From Candidatus Margulisiibacteriota bacterium (GTDB lineage: Bacteria; Margulisbacteria; WOR-1; O2-12-FULL-45-9; XYB2-FULL-48-7): DNA of 33,465 nucleotides. The notes beneath the pieces were generated by a model. The model worked only from the letters and a program-made list of their open reading frames with translations. It ran no database searches and had not been told where the DNA came from. The position numbers were made by a program, and so were the translations under genes. The stretch spans positions 1-33,465 of the forward strand of contig JAHJKL010000030.1 of the NCBI GenBank assembly GCA_018822365.1. The letters run 5' to 3'. Below are positions 11-25,368 of the stretch, piece after piece (positions within the stretch are counted from its first letter, which is position 1; every line of letters begins with the position of its first letter).

Positions 11-39
11 TTGACAACTTTTTCCGATTGCAGTACAAT
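11..39 (+). promoter_or_regulatory. sigma70-type promoter upstream of the superoperon
   Basis: A perfect -35 hexamer TTGACA (11-16) is followed by a 17-nt spacer and a -10 hexamer TACAAT (34-39), one base from consensus. Transcription would start near 46. It is the only convincing promoter before rpmG and the following cluster. The sequence left of it is outside the window, so read-through from an upstream gene cannot be excluded. Confidence 0.75.
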
Positions 40-56
40 AATATAGTTAAGGTACC

Positions 57-108
57 GTTTGGGATAACGAGCCAGTCCTTCTGCCGATGAATTAGAAGGA
101 TCACAAAT
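57..108 (+). promoter_or_regulatory. structured 5' leader with a possible antiterminator fold
   Basis: A 7-bp hairpin is visible: TCCTTCT (76-82) pairs with AGAAGGA (94-100) around an 11-nt loop. Outside it, GTTTGGGAT (57-65) can pair with 100-108, with one G.A mismatch and one G.U pair. That outer helix would use the CACAAA strand (102-107) that forms the base of the terminator at 102-161, so the two folds compete. This is the usual logic of transcription attenuation. No known riboswitch or r-protein leader class was recognised. The hairpin is seen directly; the switching role is inference. Confidence 0.35.
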
Positions 109-161
109 CTCCCTATTTTTCCCCGATGAAGTCGGGGAGCGGGGGAGTTTGTGTTTTTTTT
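102..161 (+). terminator. intrinsic terminator just upstream of rpmG
   Basis: CACAAA (102-107) pairs with TTTGTG (148-153) and CTCCC (109-113) with GGGAG (143-147), with T108 bulged. An inner hairpin CCCCGA/TCGGGG (121-126/132-137) stacks inside. Eight T residues follow at 154-161. This is a strong Rho-independent terminator. Only 13 nt separate it from the rpmG start codon, which leaves no room for another promoter. Transcription of rpmG and the downstream cluster must therefore read through it, so it probably acts as a regulated attenuator. It could also end an upstream transcript or a small RNA of about 115 nt. Confidence 0.8.
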
Positions 162-174
162 ATGGGAGTAAACG

Positions 175-324
175 ATGCAGGAAATTATTACGCTTGTTTG
201 CGGTGAATGTAAAAGAAAAAATTACACCACTACTAAGAACAAGAAGAACACTAAAGAGAGGATCGAGTTGACGAAGTATTGCAAGTGGGACCGGAAGCAT
301 ACAGCGCATAAAGAGGAAAAATAA
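175..324 (+). CDS. rpmG: 50S ribosomal protein L33
   Basis: This 49-aa protein has the L33 pattern: a first zinc knuckle C9-x2-C12, the [11 protein letters not shown] stretch, and the C-terminal RKHTAHKE signature. L33 sits near the E-site tRNA on the large subunit. A Shine-Dalgarno GGGAG at 164-168, immediately after the terminator T-tract, sets the ATG at 175. The second knuckle is altered: the family pattern CPxCRKHT reads C36-K-W-D39-R-K-H-T here, so the fourth zinc ligand is Asp rather than Cys. The gene lies first in the rpmG-tRNA-secE-nusG order found in many bacteria. The identification is secure; the zinc status is uncertain. Confidence 0.95.
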
Positions 325-347
325 TTTCTCTTTGTCGGCAACGCTCT

Positions 348-418
348 GGGAGTGTCGGTTAATGGCAAACCACTGGTCTCCAAAACCAGGACTGGGGGTT
401 CAAGTCCCTCCACTCCCG
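348..418 (+). tRNA. tRNA-Trp (anticodon CCA)
   Basis: A complete cloverleaf can be drawn. The acceptor stem GGGAGTG (348-354) pairs with CACTCCC (411-417), with discriminator G418. The D stem is GGTT/AACC, the anticodon stem CTGGT/ACCAG (373-377/385-389), the loop CTCCAAA with anticodon CCA at 380-382. The variable loop has 4 nt and the T arm is 394-410 with loop TTCAAGT. The 3' CCA is not encoded and must be added enzymatically. The gene lies between rpmG and secE on the same transcript, so tRNA maturation would cut the mRNA there. Confidence 0.96.
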
Positions 419-433
419 GTTTTAAATTATTGA

Positions 434-619
434 ATGAAAAATAAGATAGTTAATTACTTTAACGAGACTCTGGCGGAAATGAAGAAGGTCGCCTGGCCGG
501 ATCGGCAATATGTTACCGCGGCGACCGTGATAATTTTAGTGATCGTTCTGATGACCGGTTTTTTTGTGTTGTTCGTCGATTATGTGCTCGGTTCGGTGTT
601 TAAATTAATATTGGGTTGA
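434..619 (+). CDS. secE: preprotein translocase subunit SecE
   Basis: This 61-aa single-span membrane protein clamps SecY in the SecYEG channel. The cytoplasmic amphipathic helix (residues 5-20) leads into the signature MKKVAWPDR (16-24). One transmembrane segment spans about 29-57. It is the short, one-helix form found in most bacteria outside the enterobacteria. The ATG at 434 lies only 15 nt after the tRNA-Trp and has no recognisable Shine-Dalgarno. It is followed by nusG in the conserved secE-nusG pair; secY lies about 21 kb downstream in the same cluster. Confidence 0.96.
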   Translation: MKNKIVNYFNETLAEMKKVAWPDRQYVTAATVIILVIVLMTGFFVLFVDYVLGSVFKLILG

Positions 620-629
620 TGATTAAATA

Positions 630-1238
630 ATGAATGATAACCAAGAACATTTGACAAGTGAGCCAGAAGAGAACGCGGCCCCAGCACCGGAAGAAGTAAA
701 ACCGGCGCCGGCTGGCGATAAAAAGTGGTATGTGATCCAAACCTTGACCGGCCAGGAAGACCGGGCCAAGCTGGCAATTGAACAGGCGATCGAATCCGAA
801 GGTTTAAAAGATAAGATTATTCAGGTCCTGGTCCCGATTGAGGAAACAATAGAGATCAAAGGCGGCAAGCGCTATGAACGCATCCGCAAGATGTTCCCCG
901 GTTACGTTTTCCTCGAGATGATCCTGGACGAAGAAACCTGGTACGTGATCCGGCAGACGACCGGCGTCGCCAGATTTATTGGGACTAAAACGCAGCCAAC
1001 CCCGGTATCCGACCGGGAAATGGCCCGGGTCTTGAAACAGCTTGGTAAAGAAGAAAAACTGGAAGTCTTTTTTGAGAAGGGTGAGGCGGTCAGGATCATT
1101 TTTGGTCCGTTCCGCGGCTACACCGGCAATGTCGATGAGATCAATCCGGAAAAAGGGAAGCTCAAAGTCCTGATCAATATTTTTGGTCGGGACACGCCGG
1201 TCGAGGTCAATTTTGAGCACGCCCAAAAATTAGTCTGA
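630..1238 (+). CDS. nusG: transcription elongation/antitermination factor NusG
   Basis: NusG (202 aa) binds the RNA polymerase clamp and links it to Rho or to ribosomal S10. The NGN domain starts at KKWYVIQT (31-38) and includes the [10 protein letters not shown] stretch. A linker leads to the C-terminal KOW domain at about 152-180 ([11 protein letters not shown]). Residues 1-30 form an extra Glu/Pro/Ala-rich tail before the NGN domain. No other start codon lies between 630 and the core, so the tail is real if the protein is made. Both NusG partners in transcription-translation coupling, RNA polymerase and S10, are encoded in the same cluster. Confidence 0.97.
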
Positions 1239-1248
1239 AGGGAAGGCC

Positions 1249-1677
1249 ATGGCAGCTAAAAAAGAACTTTTAACTAAAGTAAAATTGCAGATCAAAGCGG
1301 GAGCCGCTAATCCCGCCCCTCCGATCGGTCCCGCGCTCGGCCAGCACGGCCTCAACATCATGGAATTCTGTAAACAATATAATGCCGCGACCAAAGATAA
1401 AGGGGATATGGTCATCCCGGTCGAGATCTCGATCTTCAAGGACCGCTCCTTTACCTTTATATTAAAGACCCCGCCTGTGGCCGACCTTTTAAGAAAAGCG
1501 GCGGGCGTGGAAAAAGGGTCCGGCGTTCCCAACAAGAACAAAGTAGGCGCCGTCTCCAAAGCCAAGGTCAAGGAAATTGCCGAACTTAAATTGCCCGACC
1601 TCAATGCCAACGACGTCGAAGCCGGGATGAAAATTGTTGAAGGGACCGCCCGGAGCATGGGGATAAACGTACAATGA
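1249..1677 (+). CDS. rplK: 50S ribosomal protein L11
   Basis: L11 (142 aa, standard length) forms the base of the GTPase-associated centre with 23S rRNA helices 43/44. The N-terminal Pro-rich segment [13 protein letters not shown], target of thiostrepton in the family, is intact, as is the C-terminal rRNA-binding domain with [21 protein letters not shown] ribosome binding site precedes the ATG at 1249. The stop overlaps the rplA start in an ATGA arrangement, indicating translational coupling of L11 and L1. Confidence 0.97.
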
Positions 1678-2369
1678 GCGGAAAAAAATTCAACGAAAAG
1701 AACAAACTGGTCAATAGCGACAAAAAATATACCCTCCAGGAAGCGGTTGCCATGTTAAAGCAGACTGCCTGGGCCAAGTTTGACGAAACAGTCGACCTGG
1801 CGATCAAGCTTGGGGTCAACACCACCAAGAACCCCTCGATCCGCGGCGCTGTTTCCCTCCCTTCCGGGAGCGGCAAAAGCAAAAAGATCGCGGTCATTAC
1901 CAGCCCTGCCGGCGTCAAAGAGGCCGAAAAAGCCGGCGCGGCCGTAGCCGGTTCGGAAGACCTGGTAGAAAAGATCAAGGGGGGCTTCCTCGATTTTGAT
2001 ATTCTGATCGCTTCACCAGATATGATGGTCTCGGTCGGCAAGCTTGGAAAAATGCTGGGCCCCAAAGGGCTGATGCCTAACCCCAAGACCGGCACTGTCA
2101 CAGAGGATGTGGCTAAGGCGGTCGCGGAATTCAAAGGGGGGAAAGTTGAGTTCAAGATGGACAAAGGCGGCGCGGTCCATATGGTTATCGGGAAAGTTTC
2201 ATTCGCGCCTGAAGCGCTGATCAAGAATTTTAAGACCTCGCTGGAAGCGATCAACCGCCAAAAACCTTCCGGGCTTAAAGGTGTATACATCAAATCTATC
2301 ACCCTTTCCTCGACGATGGGGCCGGGGATCAAGCTGGACACGCGTAAAACTTTGGAAGAGGTTGAATAA
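1674..2369 (+). CDS. rplA: 50S ribosomal protein L1
   Basis: L1 (231 aa) builds the mobile stalk that escorts deacylated tRNA from the E site. The signature [14 protein letters not shown] is present, along with the domain I region ending in [15 protein letters not shown]. The usual DPRKAD stretch before the VRG/LPxGxGK segment reads [10 protein letters not shown] here, a modest departure. In many bacteria L1 represses its own operon by binding the leader mRNA. No such leader exists before rplK, where the gap from nusG is 10 nt. rplJ starts in the TAATG overlap at its end. Confidence 0.97.
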
Positions 2370-2899
2370 TGAGCGAAAAAGCGATCGCGCGGAAAAAAAT
2401 TGTTGTCGATGACCTGAAGGACCGGATCTCCAGATCCAGCTTGCTGGTGATCACCGATTATGTTGGCTTTACCGTCAAGGATCTGACCGGTTTGCGCAAG
2501 AAACTCCGGCCCACCGGCGGCGAGCTGAAGATCATCAAGAACACCCTGATCCACCGGGCGGCGAGCGAATGCGGCTATGATGGGCTGGAAGACAAGCTCA
2601 AAGGTTCTACCGCTTTGCTTCTGGGCTACGACGATCCTGTCGCCCCGCTCAAGGTCATGGTTGAATACTTTAAAGAGATCGAAAAAGGGGCGATGCGCGC
2701 CGGGATCGTCAGCAAATCTGTTTTTGACGAAAAGCAGCTCAAAGAAATATCCAAGCTGCCGCCGCGCGATATTCTGCTCGGTAAAGTTGTCGGCGGCCTC
2801 CAGGCGCCGATCTCCGGTTTGGTTAACGTCTTGCAAGGTCCGATCAGGAAACTGGTCTACGCCCTGCAAGCGATCAAAGACAAGAAAGGAGGGGAATAA
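2369..2899 (+). CDS. rplJ: 50S ribosomal protein L10
   Basis: L10 (176 aa) anchors the L7/L12 dimers of the stalk. The N-terminal rRNA-binding domain carries ITDYVGFTVKDLTGLRKKLR and the KNTLIHRA segment. The C-terminal helix for L12 binding follows after about residue 130. The start codon overlaps the rplA stop by one base, so the L10 leader that normally binds the L10-L12 complex has no room upstream. Any feedback control must use sequence inside rplA or act elsewhere. Confidence 0.96.
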   Translation: MSEKAIARKKIVVDDLKDRISRSSLLVITDYVGFTVKDLTGLRKKLRPTGGELKIIKNTLIHRAASECGYDGLEDKLKGSTALLLGYDDPVAPLKVMVEYFKEIEKGAMRAGIVSKSVFDEKQLKEISKLPPRDILLGKVVGGLQAPISGLVNVLQGPIRKLVYALQAIKDKKGGE

Positions 2900-2902
2900 G
2901 AA

Positions 2903-3280
2903 ATGTCAAAAGTACAGGAATTGATCACGTCAGTTGAGTCGATGACCGTTCTCGAACTGTCCGAGCTGGTGAAAGCCCTTGAAGAAAAGTTCGGGGTAAC
3001 CGCCGCCGCTCCGATGATGATGGGGGGTGGGATGATGCCGGGTGCCGGCGCCGCCGCTGAAGCTCCGAAAGATGAGTTCGACGTCGTGCTTACCGCTGCC
3101 GGAGACAAGAAGATCCAGGTGCTCAAGGTTCTCCGCGAGCTGACCGGTCTTGGTCTCAAGGAAGCAAAAGATCTCGTTGACGGCGCGCCCAAGACCGTCA
3201 AAGAGAAAATAAAGAAAGAAGAAGCTGAAGAGATTAAAAAGAAACTCGAAGCTGAAGGGGCAAAGGTAGAGATCAAATAA
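2903..3280 (+). CDS. rplL: 50S ribosomal protein L7/L12
   Basis: L7/L12 (125 aa) is the multi-copy stalk protein that recruits translational GTPases. The N-terminal dimerisation domain (1-32) is followed by a flexible hinge (about 34-55) and the C-terminal domain with [20 protein letters not shown]. The hinge is rich in Met and Gly (Met38-40, Met44-45) rather than mainly Ala/Pro. A very strong Shine-Dalgarno, AAAGGAGGGG, begins at 2885. This may help provide the several copies needed per ribosome, since no separate promoter or rplL-rpoB attenuator is present. rpoB begins in a TAATG overlap. Confidence 0.97.
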
Positions 3281-6200
3281 TGACTGGTAGAAGGAAATTT
3301 TTTCAAACACGAAGCAGAAAGGTCATTGAGCCGCCGGATCTTTTGGAACTGCAGAAGGATTCTTTCAAGTGGTTCCTGGAAGAAGGGCTGCCGGAAGAAT
3401 TAAGGCTGGTCTCTCCCATCAAAGGTTATCAGGGGGGATTGGAGCTTTCGTTCACCGGTAAGTGCAGCTACGGCAAGCCAAAATACCCGACTGAAGAGTG
3501 TTTGATCCGGGAAACGACTTATTCCGTGCCAATGAAGGTTGAAGCTCGTTTGCTCAACAAGGAGACAAAGGAGATCAAGTCGCAGGAAGTGTTCATCGGC
3601 GACCTGCCGATGATGACCGATCGCGGCACTTTCATTATTAATGGGGCGGAACGGGTCATTGTTTCCCAGCTGGTCCGTTCTCCCGGCGTTTATTTCCGCG
3701 AATCAAAGCGGAACGAGCGGACCGGGAAGGTCATTTTCTACGCGATGGTCGTTCCCGACCGCGGTGCCTGGCTGGAGATCGAAACGGACGCTTCCAATTC
3801 GCTCTCGGTTAGGATTAACCGTGCCCGCAAGATCCCGATAACCATGTTCCTGTCAGCGATCGGCGCGACCGAAGAAGAGGTCCTCAAAGCTTTACCGGAA
3901 GGGGAGCATCGGCGCAAATCCCTTAAGGATTGCCCGATCCTGCCGCGCGATGAAGCGCTGATCGAGATCTACAAACGGCTCCGCCCGGGAGATCCGGTAA
4001 CCCAGGAAGGGGCTCAGGTTTATCTGAACAATCTTTTCTTCAACGCCAGACGCTATGACCTGGGGAAGGTCGGCCGCTACAAGCTGAACCGCCGCCTCAC
4101 CGTCAAGATCGAAGAAGACAAGACCATGCTGACCAAGATCGACATTTTGGCCATGGTCGAAAATCTGGTAAGCATTAACAATGGCGACGGTATGCCTGAC
4201 GATATCGACCACCTTGGCAACCGCCGCATCCGCGCCGTCGGAGAGCTTTTGCAGCGCCAGATCCGGGTCGGTTTTGCCCGGGTTGAAAAGCTGGTCAAAG
4301 AGCAGATGATGATCAAAGGAGCGGAGCCGCTGACCCCGGGACAACTGGTCAATGTCCGGCCGCTGCAAGCGGTGATCAAAGAATTTTTCGGCTCCAGTCA
4401 GTTGTCGCAATTCATGGACCAGACCAATCCTTTGGCCGAATTGACCCACAAGCGGCGTTTGTCGGCCCTTGGCCCCGGCGGTTTAAGCCGGGAGCGGGCG
4501 GGCTTTGAGGTCCGCGACATCCATCCGTCCCACTATGGCCGCATTTGTCCGATCGAAACACCGGAAGGTCCGAACGCCGGTCTGATCGGCTCCCTCTCGA
4601 CCTACGCGAGGGTCAACAAATACGGTTTTATCGAATCCCCTTACCGCAAGGTGGAAAAAGGGCGGATCACCAATAAAGTAGAATACCAAACCGCTGACGT
4701 CAGCGACTTTTTCAGGATCGCTTCGTTCGACGTCAAGCTGGACGACGACGGCAAGATCACCGACAAGAATTGCACCGTCAGCTATAAACGCAAATTTATT
4801 CTGGCGACCCCGGACGAGATCGACTACATGGCGGTCGCCCCGGAGCAGATCATCGGCGTGACCACCGCCATGATCCCCTTTGTTGAACACGACGACGCCA
4901 ACCGCGCTTTGATGGGGGCCAACATGCAGCGCCAATCGGTGCCGCTCCTTTCCCCGGAAGCCCCAATCGTTGGGACCGGCTGGGAAGCTCGGGTCGCCAA
5001 AGATTCCCGTTCGCTGGTTACCGCCAAGAACCCGGGCAAAGTTATCAGGGTTGATGCCAATGAAGTGGTTATCCAGCGCGACAACAAAACCAAAGATACT
5101 TACAAGCTGACCAGCTTTGGCCGGAGCAACCAGGATACCCTGGTCCACCAGCGGCCGCGCGTCAAACTTGGCCAGTCGGTCAAAGTTGGCGAACCGGTCG
5201 CCGACAGCTCCGCGACCAAAGACGGCGAACTGGCGCTGGGCAAAAATTGCCTGGTCGCCCTGATGCCGTTCGAAGGTTTCAACTATGAAGACGCGATCAT
5301 TCTCTCCGAACGCCTGGTCAAAAAAGATGTTTTCACTACCGTCCATATCCAGCGGCTGGAAGTCGAGGTCCGTGCCACCAAGCTGGGAATGGAAGAGATC
5401 ACCCGCGAGATCCCCAATGTCGGCGAAGAAGCGATCGCCAATCTCGACGACCGCGGAGTGATCGTCGCCGGCTCCGAAGTTGAACCGGGCGATGTCCTGG
5501 TTGGCAAGGTTACTCCAAAGGGAGAAACCGAACTGCCGGCCGAAGAAAAGCTCCTTCGCGCCATTTTTGGCGATAAGGCCCGCGATATGCGCGACACCTC
5601 GCTCCGCGTTCCGCCCGGAGAGACCGGAAAAGTTATCGCGGTCCGCTCTTTTTCCCGCGAGAACGGGGATGAGCTGCCGCCGGGAGTGCATGAACTGGTC
5701 AGGGTTTATATCGCTCAATTGCGCAAGATCAGTGTCGGTGACAAGATCGCCGGACGGCACGGGAACAAAGGGGTTGTCGCCAAGGTCCTGCCGGAAGAAG
5801 ATATGCCTTACCTGCCGGATGGTACCCCGGTTGATGTTATTTTAAACCCGTTGGGCGTTCCTTCCCGTATGAATATCGGCCAGATCTTTGAATTGATGCT
5901 TGGCCAGGCCGGCTGGTCGCTTGGCCGGAAATACGAAATGCCCCCGTTTGACGAAGCGTTTGAAGAGAACGCTTCGCTCAACACGATCGAGAACGAACTG
6001 CAGGAAGCTTCGACCCGCAAAGATTTTCCGTGGGTCAACAAGAGCGGAAAAGTCGATCTGATCGACGCCCGCACCGGCCGGCCGTTTGGCCGCAAGGTCG
6101 CGGTCGGCAAGATGTACCTGATGAAGCTGATCCACTTAGTTGACGACAAGATGCACGCCCGCTCGACCGGCCCTTATTCGCTTATCACCCAGCAGCCGCT

Positions 6201-6547
6201 GGGGGGTAAAGCCCAGTTCGGCGGACAGCGCTTCGGAGAAATGGAGGTCTGGGCCCTTTACGCCTACGGCGCCGCCCACACGTTGCAGGAGATCCTGACG
6301 ATCAAATCCGACGACGTGGTTGGCCGCTCCCGCGCCTATGAAGCGATCCTCAAAGGTAAATCAATGAGCAAACCAGGCATGCCGGAGTCGTTCAAAGTCC
6401 TGCTCAAGGAATTGCGCGGATTGGCTCTCGACATGAAGACCGTCACCCGTGAAGGCAAAGAGATAAACATTGACGAAGATACCAGATCAGCGCGCGAGCG
6501 AACGCCGCAGATCTTTGGCCGATCACGGTCATCAGGAGGAGAGAAAC

Positions 6548-6558
<11 letters not shown>
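3280..6558 (+). CDS. rpoB: DNA-directed RNA polymerase subunit beta
   Basis: The beta subunit has 1092 aa, close to the cyanobacterial length and well below the roughly 1340 of E. coli, so lineage-specific insertions are absent. The rifampicin region is intact: [13 protein letters not shown] begins at 369, with D380, H390 and S395 matching E. coli D516, H526 and S531, the drug-sensitive consensus. The catalytic-core segment [17 protein letters not shown] and the C-terminal [24 protein letters not shown] region (here with TQQ) are present. The gene starts in the overlap with rplL and its end overlaps rpoC by 11 nt. Confidence 0.98.
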
Positions 6559-10698
<4,140 letters not shown>

Positions 10699-10699
<1 letters not shown>

Positions 10700-11088
10700 T
10701 GCCGACAATCAATCAATTGATCAGAAAAGGGAGGGGCTCTAAGAAAACCAGGAGCAAGGCTCCGGCGCTCAAGTGTTGCCCTTTAAAACGCGGTGTTTGC
10801 ACCAGGGTCTATACCACTACCCCCAAAAAGCCCAACTCGGCGCTGCGCAAAGTCGCGCGCGTCAAGCTGGCCGGCGGAATAGAGGTCAGCGCTTACATTC
10901 CGGGCATTGGCCACAATCTTCAGGAACACTCGGTCGTTTTGGTCCGCGGCGGCCGTGTTAAAGACCTGCCCGGTGTCAGATATCACATTGTGCGCGGCGC
11001 GTATGATACCGCCGGCGTGGAGAAACGGAATCAGAGCCGTTCCAAGTATGGAGCGAAACGGCCGAAGGGGGGTAGCGCCAGTGCCTAG
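10699..11088 (+). CDS. rpsL: 30S ribosomal protein S12
   Basis: S12 (129 aa) lines the decoding centre. [11 protein letters not shown] begins at 41 and [14 protein letters not shown] at 83. K43 and K88 have the residues typical of streptomycin-sensitive S12, and D89 is the residue that is methylthiolated in some bacteria. The start lies in a TAATG overlap with rpoC, preceded by AGGAGGAGG. The C-terminus is a few residues longer than in E. coli. With rpsG and fusA it forms the str cluster, fused here to the RNA polymerase genes. Confidence 0.97.
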
Positions 11089-11551
11089 GTATGGAAGGGT
11101 CCCCAAACGTAAAATTGTTCCGGATCCAATTTACAGCAGTGCCATGGTCCAGCGTTTTATCAACAAGATGATCCAGGACGGGAAGAAGAGCAAAGTCGAA
11201 AAGATCTTCTACGACGCCATGGAAATTGTCGAAGGTAAATTGAAAAAGCCGGCGCTGGAGATCTTTACCAAATCGATCGAGAACCTGACCCCGTTGCTTG
11301 AGGTCAAGCCCCGGCGTGTCGGCGGAGCGACTTACCAGATCCCGGTCGAGGTTTCCAAGCTGCGCGGCGAAGCGCTGGCCATGCAATGGCTGCGCGAATC
11401 GGCCCGGGAGCGGAGCGGCCGCTCGATGGCGGAAAACCTGTCCGGTGAAATGATCGATGCTTACAACGGCGGCGGCAACGCGATGAAAAACAGGGAAACG
11501 CTGCATAAGACGGCCGAAGCTAATAAAGCTTTCGCGCACTTCAGGTGGTAA
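11081..11551 (+). CDS. rpsG: 30S ribosomal protein S7
   Basis: S7 (156 aa, standard length) nucleates the small-subunit head and contacts E-site tRNA. The GTG at 11081 is preferred: it gives [18 protein letters not shown], the normal S7 N-terminus. The longer reading from 10907 lies inside rpsL. Key segments are [30 protein letters not shown] and the C-terminal [15 protein letters not shown]. The start overlaps the end of rpsL by 8 nt with a purine-rich AGGGGGG upstream, suggesting coupled translation. Confidence 0.97.
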
Positions 11552-11557
11552 AAGAAA

Positions 11558-13636
11558 ATGCCTAGAGAATGTCCGATAGAAAAATATAGAAATATGGGAT
11601 TCGCGGCTCACATTGACGCCGGGAAGACCACGACCACGGAGCGGGTGTTGTTTTACAGCGGCCGGCTCCACCGGATCGGCAATGTTGATGACGGTAATAC
11701 CGCCATGGACTGGATGGTCCAGGAAAAAGAGCGCGGCATTACCATTACTTCGGCCGCGACCACGACCTTCTGGCGCGACCATCGGATCAATATTATCGAT
11801 ACCCCGGGACACGTTGATTTTACCGTCGAAGTAGAGCGCTCCATGCGCGTTCTCGACGGAGTGGTGGTTATTTTCTGCGCCGTTGGCGGGGTTCAGCCGC
11901 AGTCGGAGACCGTCTGGCGGCAGGCAATGCGCTACAAGGTTCCCCGGATGGCGTTTGTCAATAAAATGGACCGGCTTGGGGCCGATTTTTACCGGGTGGT
12001 TGGTCAGATCAAGGACCGTCTGCTGGTCAGGCCGGTGGTGATGCAGCTGCCGATCGGCGCCGAGGAGAATTTTAAAGGTGTGGTTGACCTGGTTGAGATG
12101 GAAGCGGTTATTTACGACGATGAGCAGGGGATGAAGTTCCATAAGGAGCCGATCCCCGCTGATCTGGCGGACAAAGCCAAACAATACCATGACCAGTTGG
12201 TTGAAGCGGCGGCTGAAGCCGACGACGCGACCCTGGAAAGATATTTGTCCGGTACCCCGTTAACCAAAGAAGAGGTCAAAGCGGGGATCCGGAAGCTCAC
12301 CGTCGACGCCGCCATCGTGCCGGTCTTCTGCGGCTCTTCTTTTAAGAACAAAGGGGTTCAGCCCCTGCTTGACGGGATCGTCGACTACCTGCCGTCGCCT
12401 CTGGACAAGAAAGCGGTGGTCGGGACCGATCCGAAAAACGGGGAAGAGATCACCCGCGAACCAAGCGACGAAGCGCCGTTCTCGGCGTTAGCCTTCAAGA
12501 TCGCGACCGATCCATTTGTCGGCCGGTTGACCTTTTTCCGGGTCTACTCGGGGGTCTTGAGCACCGGTTCATATACTTTCAACTCTTCAAAGGACCGGAA
12601 AGAGCGGATCGGCCGCTTGCTGCAAATGCACGCCAACAAGCGCGAAGAGATCAGCGAGATCTATGCCGGCGACATTGGCGCGATCGTTGGGCTCAAAGGG
12701 ACGATGACCGGAGACACTTTGTGCGATGGCGATAAACAGATCATCCTGGAGTCGATCCAGTTCCCGGAGCCGGTTATTTTTGTGGCGATCGAGCCCAAGA
12801 CCTCGGCCGACCAGGAAAAACTGGGCCTCTCACTTTCCAAACTCGCGGAAGAAGACCCGACTTTCCGGATCAAGACCGATCCCGAGACCGGCCAGACCAT
12901 TATTTCCGGGATGGGGGAGCTCCATCTGGAAATTATCGTCGATCGGTTATTACGGGAGTTCAAGGTTGAAGCCAACGTCGGCAAACCGCAGGTCGCCTAT
13001 AAGGAGACCATCCTTGGTTCAGCCGAAGTGGAAGGCAAATTTATCCGCCAGACCGGCGGCCGCGGACAGTACGGCCACGTCTGGCTGAAGATCGAGCCGC
13101 TTGAAGCGGGTAAGGGATACGAGTTCGTCAACAAGATCGTCGGCGGAGCGATCCCCAAGGAATATATTCCGGCGGTCGATGCCGGTATCAAAGAAGCGAT
13201 GCTGACCGGAGTTCTGGCCGGCTATCCGGTTATCGATATGAGGGCGACCTTGTTTGACGGTTCTTATCACGACGTCGACTCTTCCGAGATCGCGTTCAAG
13301 ATCGCCGGTTCAATGGCTTTCAAGAGCGGTTTTATGAAGTCAAAACCGATCCTGCTTGAACCGATCATGAAAGTTGAAGTTGTCGTTCCCGAACAGTACA
13401 TGGGGGATGTGATCGGAAATTTGAGCAGCCGCCGCGGCCACGTTGAGGAAATGTCCCCGCTGGCCGGCATGCAGACGATCAAGTCCAAAGTTCCGCTGGC
13501 GCAGATGTTCGGTTATTCGACCGACTTGCGTTCGCTGACCCAGGGACGGGGGAACTACACAATGGAATTCTCTGAATACCGCGAAGTTCCAAACAACATC
13601 GCGACTCAAATAATTGAAAAGGCACAAGGGAAGTAA
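11558..13636 (+). CDS. fusA: elongation factor G
   Basis: EF-G (692 aa) is the GTPase that drives tRNA-mRNA translocation. G1 is AHIDAGKT (17-24), the switch region includes ERGITI (58-63), G3 is DTPGH (81-85) and G4 NKMD (135-138). Domain II, the ferredoxin-like domain III ([19 protein letters not shown]), domain IV with [10 protein letters not shown], and domain V follow in order. Both the switch and domain IV motifs match the canonical translocase, not the ribosome-protection type. tuf, which normally follows fusA, is absent; rpsJ begins 3 nt after the stop. Confidence 0.98.
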
Positions 13637-13639
13637 AAA

Positions 13640-13951
13640 ATGAAGAAACAAAGGATCAGGATCAAGTTAAAGGCCTACGATCACCGGGTTCTGGATAAGT
13701 CGGCGGAAAAGATAGTGGACACGGCCAAACGGGCCGGGGCGCTGGTTTCCGGGCCAATTCCTTTGCCGACCCAGAAGCAAAAATGGTGTGTCCTTCGCTC
13801 TCCTCACGTCGACAAAAAATCAAGGGAACATTTTGAAATGCGGACCCACAAGCGCCTGATCGATATCCTGGAGCCGCCGCCGCAAACGGTTGACGCGCTG
13901 ATGCAGCTCGACCTGCCGGCCGGCGTGGATGTCGAAATAAAAATGGATTAA
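13640..13951 (+). CDS. rpsJ: 30S ribosomal protein S10
   Basis: S10 (103 aa, normal length) is a small-subunit head protein and, as NusE, a partner of NusG in antitermination. [11 protein letters not shown] at the start and the [20 protein letters not shown] loop are typical. The tip loop normally reads [12 protein letters not shown] and does so here. It starts the S10 cluster but follows fusA by only 3 nt, so there is no S10 leader for L4-mediated attenuation. Confidence 0.97.
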
Positions 13952-13962
13952 GGAAAAAAGAT

Positions 13963-14502
13963 ATGCTAGGTATAAAAAAAGGAATGACCCAGGTTTATGA
14001 CGAAAGCGGCAACCAGCTCGCCGTGACGGTTGTGGAGGCGGGCCCGTGCGTCGTTTCCCAGATCAAGACGGTGGAAAAAGAGGGTTACGCCGCGATCCAG
14101 ATCACCTTTGGCAAAGTGAAGCGGGAGATCAGGGTCGACGATCCGGCCGAATTTAAAGTCGGCCAGGAGTTCAAGGTTGACGCTTATAAGGCTGGCGACA
14201 TGATCGAAGTTTCCGGCACCACCGTCGGCAAAGGTTTTGCCGGCCGGATCAAGCGCTACCATCAGCATCGCGGTCCCATGTCGCATGGTTCCAAGTTCCA
14301 CCGGATCCCCGGCTCCATCGGTTCCGGCACCACGCCGGGACGGGTCTGGAAAGGGAAACAGATGGCGGGACGAATGGGGAATTGTCAGGCGACCAATAAA
14401 GGGTTGAAAGTGATCCAGGTTATCCCGGAAAAAAATCTGATCCTGCTGCAGGGTTCGGTGCCGGGCAAACGGGGAAATAAAGTTTTCATAAGGAAGGCAT
14501 AA
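13963..14502 (+). CDS. rplC: 50S ribosomal protein L3, compact form
   Basis: L3 reaches from the subunit surface into the peptidyl-transferase region. The N-terminus LGIKKGMTQVYDE and the GSIGSGTTPGRVWKGKQMAG loop identify it. At 179 aa it is about 25-30 residues shorter than usual. The segment normally between the first strand group and RVDD (family pattern GHFKKAGVxPKRxLREF) is missing, so IQITFGKVKREI runs straight into RVDDPAEFKVG. The C-terminus is also short. The frame is intact, so this is a real compaction and not a frameshift. Confidence 0.96.
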   Translation: MLGIKKGMTQVYDESGNQLAVTVVEAGPCVVSQIKTVEKEGYAAIQITFGKVKREIRVDDPAEFKVGQEFKVDAYKAGDMIEVSGTTVGKGFAGRIKRYHQHRGPMSHGSKFHRIPGSIGSGTTPGRVWKGKQMAGRMGNCQATNKGLKVIQVIPEKNLILLQGSVPGKRGNKVFIRKA

Positions 14503-14503
14503 C

Positions 14504-15073
14504 GTGGAAAAGAGCAAGATATTCAACGAAGAAAAAAATACCGCGGTCGTGCACGAAGTCGTGCGCTGGCTGCAAGCTTCGGCGCGGCGGGGGACCCATT
14601 CGGCCAAGACCCGGACCGAAGTCAGCGGCGGCGGCAAAAAGCCGTGGAAGCAAAAAGGGACCGGACGGGCCCGGGCCGGCAGCAATCGCTCGCCTCTCTG
14701 GCGCAAGGGCGGGGTTATTTTTCCTCCCAAGCCGCGCGATTACGGCTACGCTTTGCCGAAGAAGGTTCGCTCTTTGGCCCTGCGGGTCGCTCTTTCGGAG
14801 TTTAACCGCGAATCCAAACTAACGGTTGTTGACGACTATAAACTGGCCGCGGCCAAGACCAAAGAAGGGGTCAAGCTGTTGAAGGAGCTTGGGGTCAGCG
14901 GCAAGGTCACCGTGATCCACGCTGATCAGGATGACCTGGCCAAATCGGTCCGCAATATCGCCGGAGTGACCGTTGCCCGGGCGATCGACGTCACAGTTAT
15001 AGATCTGTTGAAATCGAAGTGGCTGGTTATCGATAAGAGATCTGTCAAGATATTAGAGGAGAGATTAAGTTAA
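14504..15073 (+). CDS. rplD: 50S ribosomal protein L4, N-terminally short
   Basis: L4 (189 aa) lines the exit tunnel. Its loop signature RRGTHSAKTRTEVSGGG...KKPWKQKGTGRARAGS is clear. The GTG at 14504 follows AAGGAAGG with a 6-nt spacer. An in-frame stop at 14489 leaves no room for a longer N-terminus. Relative to the usual L4, which begins about 20-25 residues earlier with a beta-strand hairpin, the chain starts close to the HEVVRWLQA helix. In E. coli L4 also represses its own operon at the S10 leader, which is absent here. Confidence 0.95.
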   Translation: MEKSKIFNEEKNTAVVHEVVRWLQASARRGTHSAKTRTEVSGGGKKPWKQKGTGRARAGSNRSPLWRKGGVIFPPKPRDYGYALPKKVRSLALRVALSEFNRESKLTVVDDYKLAAAKTKEGVKLLKELGVSGKVTVIHADQDDLAKSVRNIAGVTVARAIDVTVIDLLKSKWLVIDKRSVKILEERLS

Positions 15074-15074
15074 A

Positions 15075-15356
15075 ATGGAAGTTGAAAACGTAATTTTAGG
15101 AGTGGTCGTGACCGAAAAATCGATGGGGAACCGTCCTCTGGGAGGCTATGTTTTTCGCGTTAATCTTGACGCGACGAAGATCATGGTCAAACAGGCGGTT
15201 GAACGGCTGTTCAAGACAAAAGTAAAAGCGGTGAACATGGTCAATGTCCGTCCCAAACGCCGGGTCGTCGGCCGCAGCATCGGCGAAACTCGGAGATGGA
15301 AAAAAGCTTATGTGACCCTGCATAGCGGACAAACAATAAAGGAGCTGGAAGCGTAA
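15075..15356 (+). CDS. rplW: 50S ribosomal protein L23
   Basis: L23 (93 aa) sits at the tunnel exit and docks trigger factor and SRP. The start [12 protein letters not shown], the [20 protein letters not shown] helix-strand and the [20 protein letters not shown] segment match the family. It begins 1 nt after the rplD stop and ends 1 nt before rplB, inside the conserved L3-L4-L23-L2 order. Confidence 0.96.
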
Positions 15357-15357
15357 C

Positions 15358-16188
15358 ATGGCTTTGAAGAGAAGGAACCCAACCAGTCCCGGAACCAGAT
15401 TTCAAATTGTCGACGATTATTCGGATATCACCAAGGATTATCCGGAGAAAAAACTACTGGCGAGAAAAAACCAGAAATCAGGCCGCGACTGGCGCGGTTT
15501 TGTTTCCATGCGCCATCGGGGCGGCGGCAACAAAAAACATTATCGCCTGGTCGATTTTATCCGCGACAAGGATAATGTCGCCGCCAAAGTGGTGGCGATC
15601 GAGTACGATCCCAACCGGAACTGCCGGATCGCGCTGATCGAATATTCGGATAAAATCAGAAGTTATATTCTGGCTCCGCTCGGGTTAACTGTTGGCGACG
15701 ACATTATGTCCGGGGCCGAAGCCGATATCAAACCGGGCAATGCTTTGCCCCTGTCGTCCATCCCCATCGGGACCACCGTCCACAATGTTGAGATCGATCC
15801 GGGCCGCGGCGGCAAATTGGCCCGCTCCGCCGGCGCCGGATTATTGCTGTTGGCAAAAGAGGGAAATTATGCTATTGTGAAGATGCCATCCGGCGAGCAA
15901 AGGATGATCCTTATTTCCTGCCGGGCGACTGTCGGCCAGGTTGGGAATCTGGACGCCAAGAACGTTGTTCTTGGTAAAGCCGGCAAGAAGCGGCACTTAG
16001 GGCGTCGGCCGGAAGTTCGCGGCGTTGTAATGAATCCCTGCGATCACCCGCACGGTGGTGGCGAGGGTAAGTCCGGCATCGGGAGAGAACATCCTGTTAC
16101 CCCTTGGGGCAAACCTACTTTGGGTAAGAAAACTAGAAAAGCAAGACTACGCAGTGAGCGATTTATTCTGTCCAGGAGGAAAAAGTAA
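15358..16188 (+). CDS. rplB: 50S ribosomal protein L2
   Basis: L2 (276 aa, standard length) is required for subunit association and peptidyl-transferase activity. The [10 protein letters not shown] segment of the RNA-binding domain and the C-terminal signature [14 protein letters not shown] are present. H230 corresponds to the conserved E. coli H229. C228 replaces the more common Val or Ile next to that motif. The stop overlaps the rpsS start (TAATG). Confidence 0.97.
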
Positions 16189-16472
16189 TGGCGCGTTCGA
16201 CGCATAAAGGGCCGTTTGTTGAAGAAAAATTGTTGCGCAAGGTCCAAAAGGCCCAGGCGACCAACGATAAAAAAGTGATCAAGACCTGGTCACGGAGCTC
16301 GACCGTGATCCCCGATATGGTCGGCCTGACCCTGGCGGTCCATAACGGGAACAAGCATATCCCGATCTACATCACGGAAAATTATGTCGGGCACAAACTG
16401 GGCGAATTCGCCCATACCCGGACTTTCCGCGGACACAGTTCGCCGGCCAATAAAACGGAGTCGCCAGCTTAA
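16188..16472 (+). CDS. rpsS: 30S ribosomal protein S19
   Basis: S19 (94 aa) lies in the small-subunit head next to S13 and the A-site finger. [18 protein letters not shown], the [14 protein letters not shown] segment and [16 protein letters not shown] are the family signatures. The start codon shares a base with the rplB stop. Length and sequence are ordinary. Confidence 0.97.
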
Positions 16473-16474
16473 TT

Positions 16475-16813
16475 ATGGTTAACGTAAAAGCCAGATCAAA
16501 ATGGGTCAGGAGTTCTCCCCGCAAGATCATGCGGGTGATGGACGAAGTTCGCGGAAAATCGGTCGCCGAAGCGATTGCCTTGCTCCGGTTCATGCCGCAA
16601 AAAGCGGCGCGGGTGCTGGAAAAGACCGTGCTGTCGGCGGTCGCCAACGCCAGGAATAATTACAAGATGGATGAATCAAAATTAGTGCTGGGAGAAGTTT
16701 TCGTGACCAAGGGTTTTGTGATGAAGCGGTTCCAGCCGCGCGCGCGCGGCCGGGCTTTCCCGATCCAAAAGAGAACAAGTCATGTTACTGTCTCCGTGCA
16801 GGAGGGGAAATAA
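16475..16813 (+). CDS. rplV: 50S ribosomal protein L22
   Basis: L22 (112 aa) contributes a long beta-hairpin to the exit tunnel near the macrolide site. The [22 protein letters not shown]-terminal helix pair and the hairpin region [21 protein letters not shown] are intact, with no insertion or deletion of the kind linked to macrolide resistance. It starts 2 nt after rpsS and overlaps rpsC in TAATG. Confidence 0.96.
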
Positions 16814-17490
16814 TGGGTCAAAAGGTCCACCCAAAAGGTTTGCGGCTCGGGATCATCGAAGAGTGGGATAGCGTTTGGTACGCCGATGATCAAAGCTTCA
16901 AGAAACTGCTTCAGGAAGATATTGAGCTTAGGAGCTACCTGAAAAATTTACTTTACAAAGCGGGGATCTCCCGGATCAAGATCTTGCGGAAAGCCAACCA
17001 GATCGAAGTTGATCTTTACACCGCCAAGCCGGGTTTGATCATTGGCAAGGGGGGGAAAGAAGTTGCCGCCCTGCGTGAACAGTTGATCAAAAAAGTCGGC
17101 AAACAGGTCCAGCTTAACGTTCACGAGGAATCAAACCCTGATTCCTGCGCGATCTTGATGGCTGAAAACATTGCGCAGCAGCTGGAAAAACGCATTTCCT
17201 TCCGCCGGGCGATGAAGCAGGGGGTTTCCAGATCATTGCGCGCCGGTTCCAAAGGGATCAAGATCATGTGCGGCGGCCGGCTTGACGGCTCCGAGATCGC
17301 CAGAAGCGAATGGTACCGCAACGGCCGGGTGCCGCTGCAAACTCTGCGCGCCAGGATCGATTATGGTTTTGCCGAGGCGATGACCATGTACGGGAAGATC
17401 GGCATTAAAGTTTGGATCTACAAGGGTGAAGTTTTACCGCCGGCAAAGGAGACCAAGAGTGGGCCTAATACCATCGAAGCAAAAGTTTAG
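16813..17490 (+). CDS. rpsC: 30S ribosomal protein S3
   Basis: S3 (225 aa) forms the mRNA entry pore with S4 and S5. [13 protein letters not shown] opens the chain. The type-II KH domain carries its GxxG loop at G78-K79-G80-G81, and the C-terminal domain includes GWxx-type [24 protein letters not shown] strong AGGAGGGG precedes the ATG. Its last 32 nt overlap rplP, whose ribosome binding site lies within the rpsC coding sequence. Confidence 0.97.
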
Positions 17491-17869
17491 GAAACACCAG
17501 CGCCGCCGGCTGAAAGGCTGTGCGTCGCGGGGAAATACCCTGCATTACGGCGAGTTCGGGCTGCAGTCCGAAGAGTGCGTCTATTTGACGACCAACCAGA
17601 TCGAATCGGCCAGAAAAGCGATGACCCACTTCTTTAAAAGAGGGGGAAAGATCTGGCTTAGGGTTTGCGCCGACAAAGTTGTCACCGCCCGGGCGGCTGA
17701 GACCAGAATGGGTGGAGGCAAAGGGGCGCCGGTCAAATTTGTGGTGCCGATCAAACGGGGCCACATTATTTTTGAAATTGCCGGGGTTAGCCTGGAAGAC
17801 GCGAAACAAGCCTTTACTTTGGCCAGCTACAAGCTCCCCATGGCGGTTAAACTAGTGGTGAAGCAATAA
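17459..17869 (+). CDS. rplP: 50S ribosomal protein L16
   Basis: L16 (136 aa) organises the A-site region of the large subunit. The GTG at 17459 follows AAAGGAG (17445-17451) and gives [20 protein letters not shown], in register with the usual L16 start. A longer reading from 17426 is only rpsC sequence in another frame. [10 protein letters not shown] corresponds to the GKGxP loop. The following WVAVVKPG stretch typical of the family reads KFVVPIKRG here, a mild divergence. It overlaps rpsC by 32 nt and rpmC by one base. Confidence 0.95.
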
Positions 17870-18087
17870 TGAATACCAAAGAATTACGCGAACTGACGAT
17901 AAACGAGCTGGTCAAGAAGGTTTCTGACCTTCGGCGGGAGCTATTTAACCTGCGGCTCCAAAAATCAAACCAGCAGGTCAAGAATCCCCTGAAACAGAGG
18001 GAGCTGCGCCGGACGATCGCCAGGGTCTTGACGATCACCGCTCAAAAGAAAAATGTCCAACCGGTCAAATCCAAGGAGGCTAAATAG
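17869..18087 (+). CDS. rpmC: 50S ribosomal protein L29
   Basis: L29 (72 aa) is a two-helix protein beside L23 at the tunnel exit. The pattern [29 protein letters not shown] and the [13 protein letters not shown] second helix are typical. A short Lys-rich tail follows. Both ends overlap their neighbours by a single base, rplP before and rpsQ after. Confidence 0.95.
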
Positions 18088-18347
18088 TGGAAAGAGGGAA
18101 TCCCAAAGTCAGACAAGGGGTCGTGGTCAGCGACAAGATGCAGAAGACCGTGGTTGTTAAAGTTGAACGGGTTTTCCGGCATCCGAAATATCATAAGATA
18201 ATCCGGACGGCGAAAAACTTCAAAGCGCATGATGAGCAAAATCAGTGCAAAGCCGGCGACCTTGTGGAGATCATGGAAACAAGGCCGATCTCCAAGGATA
18301 AACGGTGGCGCGTAGTCAGGAGGGTTAACGTTGATTCAGCCGCGTAG
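18087..18347 (+). CDS. rpsQ: 30S ribosomal protein S17
   Basis: S17 (86 aa) is an OB-fold protein bound to the 5' domain of 16S rRNA. It shows [37 protein letters not shown] and [20 protein letters not shown]. The start is GTG with AAGGAGG at 18073-18079 and a 7-nt spacer. Its 3' end overlaps rplN by 17 nt. Confidence 0.96.
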
Positions 18348-18699
18348 TATATGTAAAGTTGCCGACAACAGCGGGGCCCGGACCGTTATGATCATTAGAT
18401 GCCTCGGGGGATCTAACCGCAAGTTTTCCGAAATTGGCGATATGGTTGTTGCGGTGGTCAAAGAGGTCCTGCCGAACATGACCGTCAAAGACGGCGAGAT
18501 CGTCAACGCGGTAGTGGTCAGGACCAAGAAGAAGCGCCGCCGGAGCGACGGGTCCTTTGTTTGTTTCGACGATAACGCTGTCGTGATCGTGGCGAAAGAC
18601 AAAAATCCCCGCGGCACCAGGGTGTTCGGCCCGATCGCCAGGGAATTGCGAGAGAGAGACTACATGAAGATCATTTCTCTGGCTCCGGAAGTGGTGTAA
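18331..18699 (+). CDS. rplN: 50S ribosomal protein L14
   Basis: L14 (122 aa) lies at the intersubunit face and binds the silencing factor RsfS in many bacteria. [17 protein letters not shown] is the canonical N-terminus, which fixes the start at TTG 18331 with CAGGAGGG upstream. The later [24 protein letters not shown] and [14 protein letters not shown] segments are standard. The 17-nt overlap with rpsQ and the weak TTG codon suggest coupling. Confidence 0.96.
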
Positions 18700-18710
18700 A
18701 GGTGAAAAAA

Positions 18711-19031
18711 ATGGCAAATACCAGAATAAAAAAAGGCGATACGATCATTATGCTTTCCGGCAAGAACAAAGGAAAGAAGGGAAAGGTCATTAAGGTTTTT
18801 CCGGAGAAGATGACGATCGTTGTGGAAGGGATCAACGTGGCCAAGCGCCATCAGAAGCCGATGCAAAAGAGCCCGGGAGGCATTATTGATAAAGCGCTTC
18901 CATTTGCCGTGTCAAAGGCGATCCTGGTCTGTCCGCGCTGTGGCAAGCCGACCCGGATCTCGGTCACCAATATCGATGGAAAGAACCGGCGGACTTGCCG
19001 GAAATGCAAAGAAATAATGGACAAGGTATAA
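18711..19031 (+). CDS. rplX: 50S ribosomal protein L24
   Basis: L24 (106 aa) initiates large-subunit assembly. The KOW motif falls in [20 protein letters not shown] (7-26). C74-x2-C77 and C96-x2-C99 form a zinc-ribbon-like four-Cys set in the C-terminal half, a variant seen in part of the family. I prefer ATG 18711 with the AAAGGTG site just after the rplN stop. The GTG at 18702 would add three residues and sits within that site. Confidence 0.94.
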
Positions 19032-19035
19032 GAAC

Positions 19036-19584
19036 ATGAAAGATCTGCAGCAGGAATATCAAAAACATATCATTAAAAAGCTCCAAGACAAGCACAAATA
19101 TGCCAACGTCATGTCGATACCGCGGCTGAAAAAGGTCGTGATCAATCGCGGCGTCGGTGAGGCGCGCGAAAATGCCAAAGCGATCGATGTTTCGGCGGCG
19201 GAGCTCTCCAGCATAGTCGGCCAGAAACCGCTTATCATCAACAGCAAGAAGGCGATCGCCGCGTTCAAGCTCAAGGGGAATATTCCCATCGGTTTGAAGG
19301 TCACGCTTCGCGGCAAGCGGATGTGGCAGTTCCTGAACAAATTGATCAGTATTTCTTTGCCAAAGATCCGTGATTTTAAAGGGGTTAATCCCAAGTCGTT
19401 CGATGGCCGGGGAAATTATTCCCTTGGGATCAAGGAACAGTTGATCTTCCCGGAAGTTGATTATAACAAGGTTGACGCGGTTCGGGGAATGGATATTACA
19501 TTTGTGACCACGGCGAAGACCGATGCCGAGGCCAGGGACCTGCTGGAAGCATTTGGCATCCCATTCCGGACCCATGACGCGTAA
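19036..19584 (+). CDS. rplE: 50S ribosomal protein L5
   Basis: L5 (182 aa, normal length) binds 5S rRNA and the P-site tRNA elbow. [37 protein letters not shown] and [20 protein letters not shown] are the recognisable conserved blocks. It lies 4 nt after rplX in the spc gene order. Confidence 0.97.
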
Positions 19585-19596
19585 GAGGAGAAAATG

Positions 19597-19782
19597 ATGG
19601 CGAAAAAATGTTGGCTTGAAAGATTAAAGCGCGAGCCGAAGTTCTCGACCAGGACGGTCCACCGCTGTTTCATGTGCGGTAGGCGCCGGGCCTACATCAG
19701 GAAGTTCGGTTTGTGCCGCATGTGCTTTAGAAAAATGGCCCACCAGGGACAGATCCCCGGCGTGGTCAAATCAAGCTGGTAA
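19597..19782 (+). CDS. rpsN: 30S ribosomal protein S14, zinc-binding type Z
   Basis: S14 (61 aa) is a small-subunit head protein. The short zinc form is shown by C24-x2-C27 and C40-x2-C43 and the end [11 protein letters not shown]. Two tandem ATGs are present at 19594 and 19597. The second gives the canonical MAKK start and a 6-nt spacing from GAGGAG (19585-19590), so I chose it. The zinc form is placed, as usual, between rplE and rpsH. Confidence 0.96.
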
Positions 19783-19800
19783 TTAAAGGAGTAATTGTCA

Positions 19801-20190
19801 ATGGATCCAATAGCTGATTTGTTAGTCAGGGTAAATAACGCGATCAAAGTCAAAAAAGAGGCGGTCGATATTCCTCATTCCAGCGTCAAAGAAGGGATCG
19901 TCAAGATCCTGCAGGAAGAGGGATTCGTCGGCAAATTTGACATTGTCGCCAGGATGAACAAGAAGGTTTTGCGGGTTGCCTTGAAATACAATGAAAACCG
20001 CAAGAGCCCGATCGTCGGGGTCAAGCGGATCAGCACTCCCGGCCGCCGGGTCTATGTCGGCAGCCAGGCCATTCCGCGGGTCCAGTCCGGTTTCGGGCTG
20101 GCAATTATTTCTACCCCAAAAGGGTTAATGACCGACGACAACGCCCGCCGGCAGAAGATCGGCGGCGAAGTCTTGTGTTTCGTTTGGTAG
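19801..20190 (+). CDS. rpsH: 30S ribosomal protein S8
   Basis: S8 (129 aa) binds the central domain of 16S rRNA. DPIADLLVRVNNA near the start, ISTPGRRVYVG in the middle and the C-terminal GGEVLCFVW identify it. ATG 19801 is 9 nt after AAAGGAG (19785-19791). The TTG at 19795 would be only 3 nt from it and is unlikely. In E. coli S8 represses the spc operon at rplE; no comparable site was looked for beyond inspection. Confidence 0.96.
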   Translation: MDPIADLLVRVNNAIKVKKEAVDIPHSSVKEGIVKILQEEGFVGKFDIVARMNKKVLRVALKYNENRKSPIVGVKRISTPGRRVYVGSQAIPRVQSGFGLAIISTPKGLMTDDNARRQKIGGEVLCFVW

Positions 20191-20200
20191 GGAGAAAAAA

Positions 20201-20758
20201 ATGGGAAGAATAGGTAAACGAATATTGGAAGTTCCCAAAGGGGTTGAGATCAAACTCGCTCCTGATGGGACTATCAGCGCCAAAGGCCCCAAAGGGACCA
20301 TTGCTTTTGTGATGAAGCCGGTCGTTAAAGTTGAGATCGATAACGGCAAGCTCACCACGGTTTTGGCTTCGACCGATCGACAGGCGCTGGCGATCCAGGG
20401 CCTCTACAACAGCATGATCGAGAATATGATCACCGGAGTGACCAAAGGGTTTGAAAAGGAACTTGACCTGGTCGGGGTCGGATATCGTGCCACGATGGCG
20501 GGGAAAAAGCTGCAGTTGCAGCTTGGCTACTCCCATCCGGTCGAGTTTGAGCCGCCCCAGGGTATTGATTTTGAGGTTCAGGGGGGGACCCGGGTCAGGG
20601 TCAAAGGGATCGACGCGCAAAAAGTAGGACAGATCGCCGCGGAGATCAGGCTGACCAGAAAAGTTGAACCTTATAAAGGAAAAGGGATCCGCTACGTTGG
20701 CGAAAAAGTCAGGCGTAAGGCCGGTAAAGCGGCCAAGGCGACCTCGGGAGGCAAGTAG
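20201..20758 (+). CDS. rplF: 50S ribosomal protein L6
   Basis: L6 (185 aa) lies near the sarcin-ricin loop. MGRIGKRILEVPKGVEI, the duplicated fold with ELDLVGVGYRATMAGKKLQL, and the C-terminal EPYKGKGIRYVGEKVRRKAGK are conserved. A short Ala/Lys tail extends the chain a few residues past the usual end. The ATG follows GGGAGAAAAAA. Confidence 0.96.
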   Translation: MGRIGKRILEVPKGVEIKLAPDGTISAKGPKGTIAFVMKPVVKVEIDNGKLTTVLASTDRQALAIQGLYNSMIENMITGVTKGFEKELDLVGVGYRATMAGKKLQLQLGYSHPVEFEPPQGIDFEVQGGTRVRVKGIDAQKVGQIAAEIRLTRKVEPYKGKGIRYVGEKVRRKAGKAAKATSGGK

Positions 20759-20761
20759 AAA

Positions 20762-21079
20762 ATGGCGATCAGAAAAAAGAAAGTATTTGGGACTATGGAG
20801 CGGCCGCGATTATCAGTTTTTCGCGGGATCAGGAATATCCATGCCCAGGTCATTGTCGATAGCGAAAGCCGGACCCTGGTTTCCGCTTCGACGGTTGAAA
20901 AAGGGCTCATCAAGAACGGCGGCAATCTTGCCGCGGCCAAAAAGATCGGGAGCTTGATCGCCGAGCGGGCGAAAGCCAAAGGGATCAAGCGGGTGGTCTT
21001 TGACCGTGGTTCGTTCATTTATCACGGCAGAGTCAAGGCTCTGGCCGACGCGGCTCGAGAAGGAGGACTGGAATTCTAA
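20762..21079 (+). CDS. rplR: 50S ribosomal protein L18, N-terminally short
   Basis: L18 (105 aa) binds 5S rRNA in the central protuberance. [31 protein letters not shown] and the end [19 protein letters not shown] are diagnostic. The usual arginine-rich N-terminal arm (RRxRRHxRVR) is missing; only MAIRKKKVF precedes GTMERPR. An in-frame TAG at 20756-20758 rules out an upstream start. The shortening is therefore genuine and would reduce contacts with 5S rRNA. Confidence 0.95.
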
Positions 21080-21080
21080 T

Positions 21081-21587: not shown

Positions 21588-21966
21588 TTTGCGGCCCCAG
21601 ACGGGCTCAAAGAAAAGAAAAAAACGGGTCGGCCGCGGGACCAGCTCCGGACTTGGCAAAACTTGCGGCCGGGGACACAAGGGCCAGACCAGCCGTTCCG
21701 GCGGGACCAAGGGATCACGCTTTGAAGGGGGACAAACCCCGCTTTACCGCCGTTTGCCAAAACGCGGCTTCAAGAACCATCCGTTCCGGGTCGTTTACCA
21801 GGTGTTCAACCTGTTCGAATTGGATAAAGCGAAGAAAGCGACCGGATTGATCAAGATCCTCGGTTCCGGCGAAGTGACCGGGCCGGTCGAGGTCAAAGCT
21901 CACAAGGTCAGCGCCACGGCCAGAAAGAAGATCGAAGCGGCCGGCGGGAAAATAATTAATGCTTAA
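21571..21966 (+). CDS. rplO: 50S ribosomal protein L15, compact form
   Basis: L15 (131 aa) is a late-assembly large-subunit protein. The Gly/Arg-rich N-terminus RVGRGTSSGLGKTCGRGHKGQ and the C-terminal VKAHKVSATARKKIEAAGG match the family. It is roughly 15 residues shorter than usual: the stretch around the family pattern TPELLxEKGLI is condensed to KAKKATGLIKILGSGEV. It overlaps rpsE (17 nt) and secY (8 nt). The direct rpsE-rplO junction shows that the L30 gene is missing here. Confidence 0.95.
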   Translation: MLNLSNLRPQTGSKKRKKRVGRGTSSGLGKTCGRGHKGQTSRSGGTKGSRFEGGQTPLYRRLPKRGFKNHPFRVVYQVFNLFELDKAKKATGLIKILGSGEVTGPVEVKAHKVSATARKKIEAAGGKIINA

Positions 21967-24841: not shown

Positions 24842-24855
24842 GTGGGGAGAAAAAA

Positions 24856-24969: not shown

Positions 24970-24984
24970 TAAAAGGAGGAATAG

Positions 24985-25365: not shown

Positions 25366-25368
25366 ACC

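Follow-up and report, generated by a model that had tools for sequence, protein, structure and literature searches.

A conserved structured leader RNA ahead of the rpmG-led ribosomal and RNA polymerase superoperon in the WOR-1/Saganbacteria class

Uncultured bacteria of the WOR-1/Saganbacteria class keep a short structured leader RNA in front of rpmG, and the output of the operon behind it is probably set by this leader. The window, meaning the whole 33,465-nucleotide stretch of DNA that was analysed, contains one such leader (Table 1). Judged by sequence comparison, the feature conserved in the class is a hairpin-masked SD-like strand followed by an RTG codon, rather than a terminator. The leader is best read as being of a kind hitherto undescribed. 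With moderate confidence, it may be regarded as a class-specific cis-regulatory 5' RNA that controls translation entry and, in the window's genus, also attenuates transcription.

Table 1. Features of the leader and of the operon behind it (positions are those of the window)
Feature	Positions	Strand	Basis or remark
Sigma-70 promoter TTGACA-N17-TACAAT	11..39	+	11/12 consensus match
5' domain hairpin (GGU..GCC, CGUU-UGGGAU-AACG)	51..73	+	family f1 counterpart UAAUCGGGGAUACGACU
Middle hairpin UCCUUCU...AGAAGGA	74..100	+	computed fold
Terminator-like hairpin, also masking the leader ORF's SD-like tract and GTG	102..153	+	dG -29.2; counterpart in relatives
SD-like GGGGGAG in hairpin 3' arm	141..147	+	counterpart tract in relatives
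Putative leader ORF GTG TTT TTT TTA TGG GAG TAA (M F F L W E stop)	151..171	+	
T8 tract of terminator	154..161	+	read from the sequence; congener G001 has T7, the other relatives mostly a poorer tail
rpmG (ribosomal protein L33), first superoperon gene	175..324	+	
tRNA-Trp(CCA), between rpmG and secE	347..419	+	
secE, nusG, rplKAJL, rpoBC, rpsLG, fusA, S10-spc-alpha clusters, rplM, rpsI	434..28687	+	nearly gapless

The first-pass annotation had described a near-perfect promoter in front of a superoperon of about 28 kb, and both descriptions hold. The promoter is the top-scoring sigma-70 match within the first 20 kb, and the run from rpmG to rpsI has main intergenic gaps of at most ~27 nt, the tRNA-Trp gene excepted. 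Ten of the proteins were named through a family search and the remainder from gene order and size. The L33 of the window's genus carries CxxC and then CxxD, not a second CxxC, and the sister family mostly keeps CxxC. The leader RNA, from about position 46, comprises a small 5' hairpin, a middle hairpin and a long hairpin followed by T8 (fold z of the whole leader, -3.1). The GGGAU of the 5' domain shows no change across the eight members of the window's family (f1), and by a hand count the pairing of the closing stem survives changes such as A-U/U-A/C-G (L015, L020, L012). The middle-hairpin stem is retained in the congener G001, where the changes are one-sided. The window is the first part of contig C30. 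Contig C28 (G000:C28:6821-6949) shares 129 bases with window positions 1-129; ahead of this overlap lie genes that, from their translations, are prs- and hom-like, which places the promoter in the space after hom. The assembly break between C28 and the window falls inside the leader, and strain variation or a k-mer overlap is the probable cause of the shared bases.

Leaders were gathered upstream of rpmG across the class (31 genomes). A TTGACA-type promoter with a leader of 77–175 nt precedes rpmG in 27 class members; three members of a different lineage within the phylum (L022, L024, L026) have a short leader only. The upstream neighbour varies, being hom in the window's family and a purD-like end in several members of the sister family, while the leader stays; the leader therefore belongs to rpmG, and the earlier proposal of a promoter and leader tied to the superoperon gains support. 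With shuffling confined to the sequence ahead of the SD-like strand, leaders up to the RTG fold better than their shuffled versions, with a mean z of -2.2 and a Stouffer z of -11.3 from relatives that are not independent.

Leader sequences differ widely outside the last hairpin. The conserved 3' strand of that hairpin reads GGUGGAGGGG and is followed by ~3–10 AU-rich bases and then GUG; it is nearly fixed, roughly UUUUGGUGGAGGG(G), with C or U usually following the GUG. The opposite strand varies yet stays complementary, with 84.7% of cells paired versus at most 68% when the strands are slid. Compensatory change occurs in 5/11 consensus hairpin pairs within the window's family, and outside it the near-invariance of the 3' strand leaves little covariation (double changes in two pairs, no more than in shuffles). 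A covariance model built from 16 leaders places the rpmG leader as the top match in most class genomes outside family f1, whose leaders, the window's included, are too divergent for it. The model also matches leaders not used in building it, in G029 (E 0.012) and G014 (E 0.13), with E-values that are rough, since an extra match in G030, lying inside other genes and probably due to chance, scored E 3.7e-4.

The conserved strand has the makings of a translation start. A GGAGG/GAGGG-type tract lies upstream of the RTG in ~25 of 27 leaders, and the 16S 3' ends carry CCTCC. The RTG, at a fixed place after the SD-like tract, is mostly GTG, with ATG in L027 and the f7 family (L030, G029) and TTG in L050; the L021 leader is without one. 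Some of the ORFs continue into rpmG or end after two codons. In 8/27 leaders the first stop in the RTG frame ends no more than 3 nt from the rpmG start, versus 2/54 for the other frames (Fisher p 0.0018), at a threshold set after seeing the data; the excess shrinks at looser thresholds (p 0.048 for 6 nt, 0.009 for 9 nt). A difference of one T in the T-run (T8/T7) between the window and G001 shifts the frame, yet both ORFs stop at the rpmG start (TAA ACG ATG; TAATG). An SD and start, with a stop near the downstream start, are thus the pattern found, with modest statistics and a post hoc threshold, and this supports a real but tiny putative leader ORF coupled to rpmG. At this position GTG greatly outnumbers ATG, unlike at an ordinary start. 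In several leaders the GUG(C) can also pair with an upstream GCGC, GCAUG or CAC, so the GUG may be constrained by pairing as well as by initiation.

The same hairpin has become a terminator in the window's genus. The strong intrinsic terminator noted in the first pass, with a T-tract ending 13 nt before the rpmG ATG at 175, is borne out by a hairpin (CACAAA-CUCCC...GGGGGAG-UUUGUG with an inner CCCCGAU/GUCGGGG stem) of dG -29.2 followed by T8, and its tail score is -5.4, where the E. coli trp attenuator, a yardstick whose sequence was entered by hand, scores -5.1. A canonical terminator occurs only in the window and G001 (dG -29.2/-26.3, tail scores -5.4/-5.0, T8/T7), and these two have the GC-rich hairpin and T-tract between promoter and first gene that mark an attenuator. 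In the other members of the family the hairpin is mostly followed by TTTGTGTGTTTGG, and many other relatives have short or interrupted T-tails. Because the T-tails are weak in most relatives, the terminator is not a class-conserved feature; attenuation by termination is likely in the window's genus, going by these sequence features, and less certain elsewhere.

A strong hairpin and T8 immediately before rpmG might by themselves suggest a pure transcription attenuator, in which a regulated terminator is opposed by an antiterminator formed from 57-65 and 100-108. The letters of these two segments do pair as had been proposed, at eight of nine positions with one G-A mismatch, but the resulting fold is not competitive. 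Forced folds and growing-chain folds were both compared. In the complete leader the antiterminator reaches -32.5 versus -46.1 kcal/mol for the terminator fold, 13.6 kcal/mol weaker, and before the 3' arm of the terminator exists (RNA up to 115-120) it reaches -11.2 versus -14.9 kcal/mol, 3.7 weaker than the local fold. The covariation suggested as a check is not seen either: the pairing is invariant in the only congener, G001, and absent from other family members, which lack its GUUUG/CAAAU portion. Neither the folds of the window leader nor the family f1 sequences yielded a mutually exclusive, conserved antiterminator of comparable stability. In favour of an attenuator, the 5'-loop GGGGA (GGGA in the window) of family f1 could pair with UCCCC (UCCC) in the 5' arm of the long hairpin, and all 8 members retain this 4–5 bp GGGA/UCCC potential (61-64/110-113). 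Forcing this pairing carries a penalty of 1.0 kcal/mol at length 115-120 and a far larger one as the chain grows further, and it offers no covariation to test because both strands are conserved. No alternative fold is competitive, so any switch in the leader is hypothetical; a ligand-dependent one is possible. With poor T-tails in most of the class as well, a pure attenuator is unlikely.

The lack of a competing fold, together with the wide sequence variation outside the last hairpin, is what would be expected of a switchless element, either a constitutive weak or partial terminator giving a fixed ratio or an mRNA-stabilising 5' hairpin protecting the transcript. This explanation is possible but somewhat doubtful, as the conserved 3' strand with its SD-like tract and RTG, and the conserved 5' domain in family f1, suggest that there is more to the leader. 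Autoregulation by NusG, with the nusG operon controlled at a NusG-dependent pause or terminator made of the hairpin and T-tract, draws on B. subtilis, where NusG pausing follows a rule of TTNTTT at -11 to -6 and a hairpin 11–12 nt upstream of the 3' end, and where a leader terminator stimulated by NusA controls nusA (PMC12288461). Several leaders fit GGGG-TTTTTT-CGTGC, but only about half of the leaders have a TTNTTT at any point in their last 60 nt, at no fixed distance, and WOR-1 NusG has Q/E-T or Q-S at the B. subtilis N-T. With this inconsistent motif and these residue differences, a NusG-dependent pause site was rejected, and NusG autoregulation is very unlikely. Least probable is an independent small RNA gene of ~115 nt that merely precedes rpmG: a promoter and terminator do bracket a short unit in the window's genus, but a second promoter for rpmG would not fit, the unit accompanies rpmG class-wide as upstream genes change, most relatives are without a good terminator, and there is no Rfam match.

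Antitermination of the rrn type and rRNA mimicry were also considered. The genomes' own rrn boxA is near ATCTTTGAAAACTA, from which the leader motif GTGCTTTT differs, and this candidate was rejected. Local alignment of the leaders to 16S and 23S, including the L1 site, did not rise above shuffles; a GUAGCA...GGUG(G)GAG in about six leaders resembles the region near the L1 stalk by eye only. In the complete WOR-1 genome G001 the 16S (at 1566789) and 23S (at 431380) lie far apart, and some class 23S matches span >3,200 bases, suggesting insertions. None of boxA, rRNA mimicry, NusG pausing or a small RNA gene is better supported than the reading as a cis-regulatory leader.

Under that leader reading, the near-consensus promoter just upstream of rpmG would make the leader RNA, and the last hairpin, as the comparison shows, buries the SD-like strand and the RTG ~3–10 nt further on. 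The RTG would start a very short leader ORF often ending at the rpmG start, so that opening of the hairpin would let ribosomes load and reach rpmG by coupling. Because the hairpin is a full terminator (T8-T7) in the window's genus, some transcripts should end near 160 and others should read through to the superoperon. Candidates for shifting this balance would be an r-protein, the NusA/NusG level or ribosome loading. A more specific version, in which this class-specific RNA, whose hairpin masks the leader ORF and in this genus has turned terminator, is a sensor of ribosome loading or of an r-protein, is distinctly unlikely; if true, one leader would gate a nearly gapless operon for most of the ribosome and RNA polymerase alpha, beta and beta'. 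Other bacteria use L10-type and S10-type leaders. Here the rif, str, S10, spc and alpha clusters are joined with almost no spacers, leaving little room for leaders of these types, and a single entry leader would thus be a natural feedback point for ribosome and RNA polymerase synthesis. The comparison singles out bases worth testing: the SD-like strand, the RTG, the hairpin arms and the GGGAU loop.

Regions upstream of rpmG in other bacteria have features of their own. Many Lachnospiraceae (L095, L098, L099, L101, L105, L129, L133) have a T8-9 run followed by ATGCC, GTG or TTG, ~20 nt after the -10 box of the rpmG-secE-nusG promoter, possibly a leader ORF start or a promoter-proximal pause or slippage site. 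In Acholeplasma-type bacteria and related Bacilli (L112, L113, L116, L121, L123, L128, L134, L137), the promoter is followed after ~20–30 nt by a short hairpin, for example ACCACAGAGGTGG, with T6-T8 behind it, which either overlaps the SD of rpmG or sits immediately upstream.

In an Rfam search of the window only the tRNA reaches its gathering score, with no T-box, riboswitch or other leader family, in agreement with the earlier statement that the leader belongs to no recognised class. No described rpmG leader in this group was found in the open-access literature, and L33 is absent from a list of new r-leaders published in 2020 (PMC7247131). Like the known r-protein leaders (Rfam L10_leader, L20, S10/L4 attenuators; PMC7247131), the WOR-1 leader is a structured 5' leader before an r-protein operon that could act via terminator formation or SD masking; it differs in having no Rfam match, rpmG as first gene and no rRNA similarity above shuffles. 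As with the B. subtilis nusA leader attenuator, which works by NusA-stimulated intrinsic termination (PMC12288461), a transcription-factor operon has an intrinsic terminator in its leader, although the WOR-1 hairpin is not a good terminator in most relatives. Compared with leader ORFs that act by translational coupling through overlapping or adjacent stops and starts (PMC6728339), the WOR-1 ORFs are extremely short, with no conserved peptide and a hairpin-masked SD-like strand, but their stops likewise adjoin or overlap the rpmG start (TAATG, TGATG, TAAATG) in several genomes.
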